A DNA stretch of 48,795 bases. Origin: an uncultured Pelagibacteraceae bacterium (lineage in GTDB: Bacteria > Pseudomonadota > Alphaproteobacteria > Pelagibacterales > Pelagibacteraceae). Position numbers and translations under genes: made by a program. The stretch spans positions 1 to 48,795 of the forward strand of contig CACKVM010000004.1 of assembly GCA_902603625.1 (NCBI GenBank), read 5' to 3'. Of the stretch, positions 12,381 through 13,777 are shown one piece after another. The notes under the pieces were generated by a model. The model saw only the letters and a list, made by a program, of their open reading frames with translations, searched no databases and was not told the origin of the DNA. How positions within the stretch are numbered: the stretch's first letter is position 1; the number at the start of each line of letters is the position of its first letter.

Positions 12381-12409
12381 TTGACATAACTTGTTTAAAA
12401 AAATAAAAA
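12381..12409 (+). promoter_or_regulatory. Strong sigma-70-type promoter for the basic peptide gene
   Basis: A perfect -35 TTGACA (12381-12386) is followed after 17 bases by TAAAAA (12404-12409), a weaker -10. Transcription would start near 12416, just before a perfect inverted repeat, about 44 bases ahead of the ATG at 12460. The 118 bases before this promoter are A/T runs with no gene. Confidence 0.6.
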
Positions 12410-12418
12410 TAAACTAAT

Positions 12419-12438
12419 AACGAATCAAATGATTCGTT
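12419..12438 (+). repeat. Perfect inverted repeat in the 5' leader
   Basis: AACGAATCA (12419-12427) and TGATTCGTT (12430-12438) are exact reverse complements with two bases between. In RNA this would form a short hairpin at or very near the mRNA 5' end. In DNA it is an operator-like 9-bp palindrome just downstream of the promoter. A 5' stabilising stem or a repressor site are both possible. Confidence 0.7.
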
Positions 12439-12459
12439 TAACTAAAAAGGGAGTTAAAG

Positions 12460-12537
12460 ATGCCTAAGAGAAGAAAAAAAGCAAAGAAGGCTAAGAAAAA
12501 AGCTAAGAAAAAAGCTAAAAAAAGAAGAAGAAGATAA
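12460..12537 (+). CDS. Tiny Lys/Arg/Ala-rich basic peptide, histone-H1-like
   Basis: A 25-residue ORF opening MPKRRKKAKK, continuing as A-K-K(-K) repeats and ending in four arginines: 13 Lys, 6 Arg and 4 Ala. Evidence that it is expressed is strong for so short a frame: a perfect TTGACA promoter (12381), a 5' inverted repeat, a Shine-Dalgarno-like GGGAG (12449-12453) six bases before ATG, and an intrinsic terminator 22 bases after the stop. Composition suggests nucleic-acid binding, like an H1 tail or a small ribosome-associated peptide, but no known family can be assigned. It faces carD, whose product carries a similar Lys-rich tail. An alternative is that the transcript is a regulatory RNA. 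Confidence 0.7.
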   Translation: MPKRRKKAKKAKKKAKKKAKKRRRR

Positions 12538-12559
12538 TTACTTAGCACTCTTTATTAAA

Positions 12560-12600
12560 AACGCTTCTCATAACGATTTACGTGTGAGAGGCGTTTTTTT
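12560..12600 (+). terminator. Intrinsic terminator between the basic peptide gene and carD
   Basis: Arms AACGCTTCTCA (12560-12570) and TGAGAGGCGTT (12585-12595) pair over 11 bases with one G-U, then a T-run on the plus strand. On the minus strand the stem is followed by TTTTTAATAAA, so it can also end carD transcription. It is the clearest intrinsic terminator I found in the window. Confidence 0.85.
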
Positions 12601-13494
12601 TTATTCCTCTGAAGGGTCATTATCTACCACATCATCTGAAATAGTCTCATCGGTAGGTAAATCAGCAGCAACTCTTTTTGGTTGAGTGTTCTCGTTTTGA
12701 TTTTGTTGAACATTCAAATTTCTCTTTAAAGCTTTATCTAATTTTTTTTGTGCGTCCTCAGTAGAAACATTCAAAACAATTTGAAATTCAGACAACATTC
12801 TTTCATAGGCTTTTTCAAATAATTGCCTTTCACTATAAGATTGATCAACCATTATATCGTCACCTTTATTTAAATCTCTCACTACTTCAGCTAATTCATA
12901 AATTTTTCCAGAAGATATTTTGGCTTCATATTCTTGAGCTCTTCTGCTCCACATTGATCTTTTTATTTTAGGTTTACTTTTTAAAATTGAGATACATTTA
13001 TTAACCTGATTAATAGTTGCTAATGGGCGCAAGTGTGATTGTTTATTAACAGGCACCATACCATTTGCCTTGTCCTTTTCAAATTTAATTACGTAAGTTT
13101 CAACATCAATTCCACCAATATTAATTTTTTTAAAATCAGTAATTTGACCTACGCCGTGTTTTGGATAAACAACATAATTTTTTACTTTGAACTCTTTTTT
13201 CTCTGTTTCTTGTTTTTTAACCTTTTTTATTTCTGGTTTTACTTCATTGCTTTTTGAAATTCTTAGATTATCAGTTTTTAATTCATTTTTTTTATCTATT
13301 TTTTTTATAGATTTTTTTGTTTCTGTCTTTTTAATTTTGTTTTTTTTACTTTTTGCAATTTTTTTTATATTTTTTTTTGGTAAACTTTTTTTAGACTTTG
13401 TCGTTTTTTTTTTAACAATGTTATTTTTTGTCTTTTTTTTTGGAGAATTTTTAAAGGTTTTCTTTAAAATATTTTTCAAACTTATTTTGCTCAT
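12601..13494 (-). CDS. carD: CarD-family transcriptional regulator with Lys-rich N-terminal tail
   Basis: A 297-residue protein. Residues 1-100 are a low-complexity basic tail with 40 lysines, lacking hydrophobic core residues. Residues about 102-165 are the CarD/CdnL RNA-polymerase-interacting domain ([24 protein letters not shown]). The helical DNA-binding part follows ([23 protein letters not shown]), and the end is acidic ([15 protein letters not shown]). CarD proteins bind the polymerase beta subunit and stabilise open promoter complexes; usual alphaproteobacterial members are about 170 residues, so the tail is extra. I chose ATG 13494; it still overlaps the ferredoxin gene by 44 bases. 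An upstream start at 13536 is possible. Confidence 0.9.
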
Positions 13495-13777
13495 CTTTAT
13501 ATTTTTCATGATCCGAAGGAGGATCTTTTTTCTCAATTATATTAGGCCAGATTTCAGAATATTGTTTATTGATTTCTAGCCATTTATCGCTGCCAGGTTC
13601 TGTATCTGCTTTTATAGCGTCTACTGGACACTCAGGCTCGCAAACGCCACAATCTATACACTCATCAGGTTTAATTACAAGCATATTTTTGCCTTCATAA
13701 AAGCAATCAACAGGACAAACTTCAACACAGTCCATGAGTTTACATTTTATACACTTGTCGTTAACAATATAAGTCAT
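13451..13777 (-). CDS. fdxA: 7Fe ferredoxin (3Fe-4S/4Fe-4S), FdxA type
   Basis: A 108-residue electron carrier. The N-terminal half has two cluster motifs: [17 protein letters not shown], and [14 protein letters not shown] with the full C-x2-C-x2-C-x3-C-P set. The first motif has the wider spacing typical of the 3Fe-4S site in FdxA of alphaproteobacteria. The C-terminal part ([18 protein letters not shown]) is the conserved FdxA tail. Its start overlaps the TerB-like stop as TAATG, and its end overlaps carD. The redox partner is unknown. Confidence 0.93.

Follow-up and report, generated by a model that had tools for sequence, protein, structure and literature searches.

The DNA analysed here, referred to as the window, is a 48,795-nucleotide (nt) stretch from an uncultured bacterium of the Pelagibacteraceae (assembly GCA_902603625.1, contig CACKVM010000004.1, positions 1 to 48,795). 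This work concerns a short open reading frame (ORF) of the window and the elements around it (Table 1). The predicted product, MPKRRKKAKKAKKKAKKKAKKRRRR, comprises 25 residues, 19 of them Lys or Arg (K/R), and is built of Lys, Ala and Arg with a single Pro at residue 2. An earlier note on this DNA had described a 25-residue K/R ORF with a TTGACA box, a hairpin at the 5' end, a GGGAG motif and a terminator, and all of these elements were confirmed. Judged from sequence comparison, the ORF is a genuine, stand-alone protein-coding gene, presumably expressed, and its product most probably represents a miniature relative of bacterial histone-H1-like proteins.

Table 1 Features of the peptide locus (window positions)
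Feature	Position	Strand	Evidence
Coding sequence (CDS) of the 25-residue Lys/Arg peptide, probably miniature histone-H1-like	12460-12537	+	translation, frame conservation, synonymous excess
Promoter: TTGACA (12381-12386), 18-nt spacer, A-rich −10-like AAAAAT (12405-12410)	12381-12410	+	promoter scan, leader conservation
Hairpin at the 5' end of the presumed transcript, AACGAATCA..TGATTCGTT	12419-12438	+	folding, leader survey
Shine-Dalgarno (SD)-like GGGAG	12449-12453	+	conservation of the SD-to-ATG block
Intrinsic terminator, apparently common to the convergent CarD gene	about 12557-12603		folding against shuffles, locus survey
CarD/CdnL-type RNA polymerase-binding protein with Lys-rich N-terminal tail, convergent	12601-13497	−	PF21095 1.1e-20, PF02559 9e-13

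The transcription unit and its signals

The peptide ORF is the only one of at least 20 residues in the window with at least 70 % K/R. Its origin as a chance product of A-rich DNA might be considered in an A-rich genome, in which AAA and AGA codons encode Lys and Arg, but no comparable ORF arose in any of 120 Markov-simulated windows and the gene is conserved in both families sampled (see below). By this conservation a chance origin is excluded.

According to the earlier note, few genes of this DNA possess such signals. This holds for their conservation as a set, but not for TTGACA and the perfect 9-bp inverted repeat of the 5' hairpin, which are individually ordinary in AT-rich DNA. TTGACA was not enriched in the window (32 observed, 34.5 expected), and the window contains 11 comparable 9-bp repeats (loop 0-6), three of them overlapping in one T-rich run. 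The −10 element AAAAAT is weak, and the number of promoter-like sites in the region (2 versus 1.4 ± 1.4 in shuffled sequences) is not significant alone. Forty ORFs of the window reach 100 residues or more; with the first ATG taken as the start, which may be wrong in some cases, none of the 40 is preceded by a 5-mer SD, one is preceded by a 4-mer SD, and two have TTGACA within 120 nt upstream.

The unit is considered significant because its signals are conserved as a set, not because of any single one. TTGACA was present in 186 and TTGAC in all of the 200 full-length distinct leaders (204 distinct leaders overall), and a GAATC..GATTY stem in 178 of the 204. In the remaining 26 leaders a hairpin was predicted at or near the same place, several genera having a different, longer stem. 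A terminator-like hairpin followed by a T run was seen in 232 of 237 loci. In the window itself, the 5' hairpin folded better than 200 of 200 shuffled sequences (z −3.95) and the terminator better than all 200 (z −7.07). The terminator was missed by a simple scanner, whose sole terminator-like call was the 5' hairpin on the − strand.

Conservation in Pelagibacter and coding potential

A DNA search of 101 genomes of the same genus, many of them incomplete, gave matches with E ≤ 1e-20 in 80 genomes; among those at least 90 % complete a match was found in 15 of 16 (G078 lacks one). Eighty named loci were retrieved via the neighbouring carD. ORFs were called by a script requiring an M[PATS][KT][KR] start and at least 60 % K/R. 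The ORF was present in 109 of 110 Pelagibacter loci (111 minus L002), L051 stopping at a contig edge. The Pelagibacter peptides are 22-35 residues long, start with MP or MA and terminate in an RRR/RRK/RKR-type end.

In 124 distinct Pelagibacter regions the mean column conservation was 100 % for TTGACAT, 99.9 % for the block from the SD to the ATG (12449-12462), 93.6 % for the CDS and 93.1 % for the hairpin. The terminator arms reached 95.7 and 94.1 % (the second including the T tract), the terminator loop 77.0 % and the spacer 87.6 %. The stop codon with the 3' untranslated region, the stretch leading to the terminator (12535-12560, + strand; AACTTAGTATTCTTTA in many Pelagibacter), was conserved at 88.3 % in comparison to 76.6 % for the upstream intergenic DNA.

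Many of the loci are near-copies, and some genomes were sampled repeatedly (L001, L112 and L285, for instance, all represent the window). The 179 ORF-bearing loci, five of them from a sister family, comprise 95 distinct coding sequences. For the coding test, sequences were compared within same-length clusters from several genera (a minimum of 3 different sequences for each length, at most 10 mismatches, proteins above 60 residues excluded). Among 103 distinct changes, 68 were synonymous, whereas 33.4 ± 4.2 were expected when identical base changes were distributed randomly over these codons; a count of 68 was not attained in any of 100,000 draws. By codon position the changes numbered 9/27/67.

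The length of the peptide varies among relatives, yet the frame stays open in all loci except L135, where it is shifted. The earlier note had suggested looking for conservation of the frame and its flanks, and had taken frame-breaking indels devoid of synonymous bias, combined with a conserved transcript structure, as a mark of non-coding RNA. The frame proved to be kept, with conserved leader, SD and terminator; broken frames were absent apart from L135, and the synonymous excess was about two-fold.

A non-coding or dual-function small RNA, in which the ORF would be incidental, could also account for the conserved 5' hairpin and terminator. This explanation is barely credible in view of the two-fold synonymous excess, the in-frame length changes and the near-invariant SD and ATG. 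Neither an Rfam match nor a convincingly covarying structure was found at the peptide locus. The covariation of the hairpin was slight and does not in itself constitute evidence: in 24 aligned leaders 94.3 % of the hairpin cells were paired, but 5 of the 8 pairs were invariant and a two-sided change was seen in only 1 of 8 pairs (matched by 195 of 500 shuffles), with a covariation score of 0.106 reached by 15 of 500 shuffles. Because of the synonymous excess, the open frames and the column conservation, the unit is best read as a messenger; a purely non-coding RNA appears very unlikely, but the RNA could have an additional role.

Longer forms outside the genus

Of 118 genomes drawn from the window's family (f1), 95 contained CarD, as did 102 of 117 genomes drawn from the order; the two draws overlap. 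The 91 CarD loci examined outside the genus form a subset, some loci at contig edges having been omitted; 66 belong to f1 and 25 to the sister family (f2). The script reported a K/R-rich ORF convergent to carD in 88 of the 91. In L252 the ORF is present with a GTG start, and L277 runs off its contig with the C-terminal codons still visible. In L135 (genus g6; 1964-2107, − strand) the frame is shifted within an A-rich run to give 47 residues with a non-basic end, which reflects either an assembly error or real decay. These loci cover 10 further f1 genera (g10, g11 and g14 were not covered) and all four f2 genera, so that, counting genera with an examined locus, the gene is retained in 11 of 14 genera drawn from the family and in all 4 drawn from the sister family.

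The f1 peptides comprise 19-58 residues, most of them 19-38. The f2 proteins have 80-99 residues except for one of 40 (L278), and carry AAPKKK/RKPAKKK repeats (e.g. MEELKVIFAKARKKAKKKAAPKKKRKAAKRKPAKKK..) typical of bacterial histone-H1-like tails. Intermediate forms exist, for example one of 58 residues, MAKKRKKAAKKKVAKKPAKRK.. Read by eye, the f2 and g12 forms possess the low-complexity Lys/Ala/Pro repeat tail of H1-like proteins, and the number of repeats varies in both families, as seen in lengths of 19-58 residues in f1 and 40-99 in f2. The f2 protein is encoded in the same place and orientation beside carD as the window peptide. In L176, the f2 locus whose leader was read completely, TTGACA, GAACGAATCA..TGATTC and GGGGGGAG are present, as in the window. 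This agreement of position and leader argues for orthology of the window peptide and the f2 protein.

A branch supported at 100/100 separated f2 from the rest of an 86-row CarD tree. Among the deep f1 branches, g5 has forms of 31-32 residues and g12, g7 and g9 have forms of 29-58; the remaining f1 genera outside Pelagibacter have 19-24 and Pelagibacter itself 22-35. The simplest reading of this distribution would be that the gene shrank rather than grew, starting out as an H1-like protein and regaining some length in Pelagibacter. The 40-residue version of L278, lying within the f2 clade of 80-99 residues, appears to be a natural contraction of H1-like repeats. A class-wide protein search with an f2 H1-like query matched 0 of 142 and also missed the window's own genome, hence it was uninformative.

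A probable miniature histone-H1-like polycation

Histone-H1-like tails are disordered polycations that bind DNA. We consider the peptide to be a miniaturised H1-like polycation of SAR11, most likely binding DNA and helping to compact or organise the nucleoid, with a probability of roughly two in three. The product, 25 residues long in the window and 19-58 in f1 as a whole, would be a polycation of low complexity, presumably unstructured and probably with DNA as its main ligand, bound non-specifically by charge neutralisation. HU/IHF-family genes were found in all 7 SAR11 genomes tested, 2-3 in each; therefore the peptide would add to these proteins in compacting or organising the nucleoid and not replace them. 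The earlier note had listed an H1-like compactor as one of three guesses; it gains strong comparative support, since the sister family encodes a more extended H1-like protein at this position.

The closest known systems are the C-terminal tails of AlgP and PhaF of Pseudomonas and the Chlamydia proteins Hc1 and Hc2, similarly low-complexity and rich in Lys and Ala (and Pro). Binding of DNA by bacterial H1-like tails was described for a fragment of the AlgP C-terminal domain and for KPAA-repeat peptides (PMC9239181). As with the SAR11 forms, the number of repeat units differs among strains: AlgP contains a variable number of KPAA repeats (PMC9239181), and Hc2 ranges from 165 to 237 residues through lysine-rich pentamers (PMC2848022). 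The SAR11 forms differ in that most f1 versions have just 19-38 residues, no other domain and Arg-rich ends, and in their fixed place beside carD with no match in Pfam, NCBIfam or PHROGs. By composition the window peptide also resembles protamine-like peptides, which are short, nearly pure Lys/Arg polycations, but it is lysine-dominated and bacterial.

Several observations weigh against the H1-like interpretation. No match above cut-off was obtained in Pfam or NCBIfam for the window, 35-residue, 50-residue or f2 forms, nor in PHROGs for the three forms compared, in agreement with the remark of the earlier note that no family covers the peptide; since no curated family model matches, it is called H1-like by composition and synteny. 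The orthology with the f2 protein is based on position, leader and composition, low-complexity sequence not being reliably alignable. The deepest f1 splits of the CarD tree are moderately supported (94/77, 92/76), its root is a midpoint root that does not fix the ancestral length, and two families alone are insufficient to fix it. Stable binding may require more than 25 residues, and besides DNA a polycation would also bind RNA or polyphosphate. Finally, the covered parts of an environmental study of transcription start sites (PMC5069720) carry no mention of the gene.

The chief rival, in itself unlikely, is a basic peptide associated with RNA or the ribosome (like bTHX, bS22 or bL37) that would stabilise ribosomal or messenger RNA. 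The size, the Arg-rich C-terminal RRRR and the conserved ends fit what is generally known of small ribosomal proteins. Length and repeat number, however, vary widely (over the f1 and f2 ranges given above), unlike in a ribosome-packed protein, and the long forms carry Ala/Pro/Lys repeats of the H1 type. A phmmer search of PDB sequences with the 35-residue relative gave no match, a test weakened by low complexity. By analogy with H1-like AlgP, which associates with polyphosphate granules, the peptide might bind polyphosphate or another polyanion; this seems scarcely probable, AlgP binding DNA as well (PMC9239181).

Bacterial H1-like proteins are a known kind. What is new is a version of 19-35 residues without any other domain, forming its own transcription unit and kept across the sampled genera. 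Searches of an open-access library, subscription papers being mostly outside its scope, showed no report of an H1-like peptide in SAR11. None of the GC-rich intergenic regions in Table 1 of Meyer 2009 (PMC2704228) is flanked by a gene named CarD, but this table omits regions below 26 % GC and hypothetical names in it may hide CarD.

SAR11 is a dominant, highly abundant ocean lineage with very streamlined genomes, and genes this short fall below the limits of common gene callers. The present gene, whose ribosome site hardly varies within the genus, is so short that ordinary annotation easily overlooks it. The finding bears on DNA packing in a lineage with few regulators, and the series of 99, 85, 58, 31 and 19 residues at one locus offers a natural experiment on the minimal H1-like tail. 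A tentative and rather doubtful extension of the H1-like interpretation is that SAR11 possesses a nucleoid protein among the smallest known, an H1-like tail that streamlining has reduced to 19-35 residues and that coats the chromosome in cooperation with the H1-like tail of CarD.

CarD and the other neighbouring gene

The gene upstream of the peptide encodes an acyl-CoA ligase-like candidate (best match, below the cut-off of the model). On the other side, carD lay convergent within 200 nt in 30 of 30 Pelagibacter loci that had been found by peptide-region DNA and not by CarD. At its N-terminus SAR11 CarD has a long tail, Lys-rich and H1-like, in 29 of 32 f1 and 4 of 4 f2 loci, and such a tail was seen in 8 of 27 CarD frames of other alphaproteobacteria; these counts include complete upstream frames only, run-off frames being excluded, and the start sites are uncertain. 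The C-terminal end of the window CarD is acidic.

In Myxococcus CarD, the RNA polymerase-binding domain is joined to a DNA-binding HMGA-like domain (PMC5324124), and the title of a 2009 reference in the same paper terms HMGA- and H1-like domains functionally equivalent. In both systems a CarD domain is thus paired with a basic HMGA/H1-like tail, but in SAR11 the basic tail of CarD sits at the N-terminus, and a separate convergent gene encodes the free H1-like peptide.

This precedent, the Lys-rich tail of SAR11 CarD and the strict adjacency in Pelagibacter are consistent with a peptide working mainly with CarD, as a free H1-like tail acting in trans at promoters or RNA polymerase. We regard such a role as improbable. 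The genes are convergent and form no operon, the loci outside the genus were collected via CarD so that adjacency is built in there, and synteny within one genus may reflect mere descent. Moreover, tailed CarD frames occur in other alphaproteobacteria, and 28 loci from these showed no H1-like gene beside carD (flanks up to 1.5 kb). Two short K/R-rich ORFs encountered were rejected, neither being H1-like by eye nor in the position of the peptide gene: one of 24 residues (L194) lies on the 5' side of carD and one of 18 residues (L198) about 1 kb past its 3' end. A functional link of the peptide to CarD is possible, though unproven.

Rejected relatives

A second match in the window's own genome (G000:C17, E 2.9e-4) was taken as chance and not as a repeated element; it sits at the start of a gene which by eye resembles one for a TRAP-type substrate-binding protein. 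Among many weak-match regions 11 were examined for paralogues, and 10 of them belong to a different protein with a FecR-like domain and a Lys-rich tail; the remaining one (L221) showed nothing related. This separate Pelagibacter protein of up to 501 residues has an apparent signal peptide, a FecR-like domain (by eye) and a very long repeat tail rich in Lys. It is represented by full ORFs in L210, L211, L216 and L217 and from an internal ATG in L212-L215, L218 and L220. A phage origin of the peptide gene was also rejected: three viral contigs with the SD-start motif were unrelated, their products not being K/R-rich, and gave no CarD or ligase match.

The 5' leader

Of 8 genomes, 6 contain the exact palindrome of the 5' hairpin in a single copy and 2 lack it. 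Because of this, a family of DNA-binding sites, such as a shared operator of a regulon, is unlikely. The hairpin likely stabilises the messenger RNA.

Other leaders carry an upstream CUCC/CCUC with the potential to pair with a GGAG located at the SD or directly beside it. This pairing was not seen in Pelagibacter; it was seen in L169, L170, L172-L175, L236-L240, L243, L247, L249 and f2 loci. It is possible that in these several deep genera and in f2 it serves translational control of the peptide.
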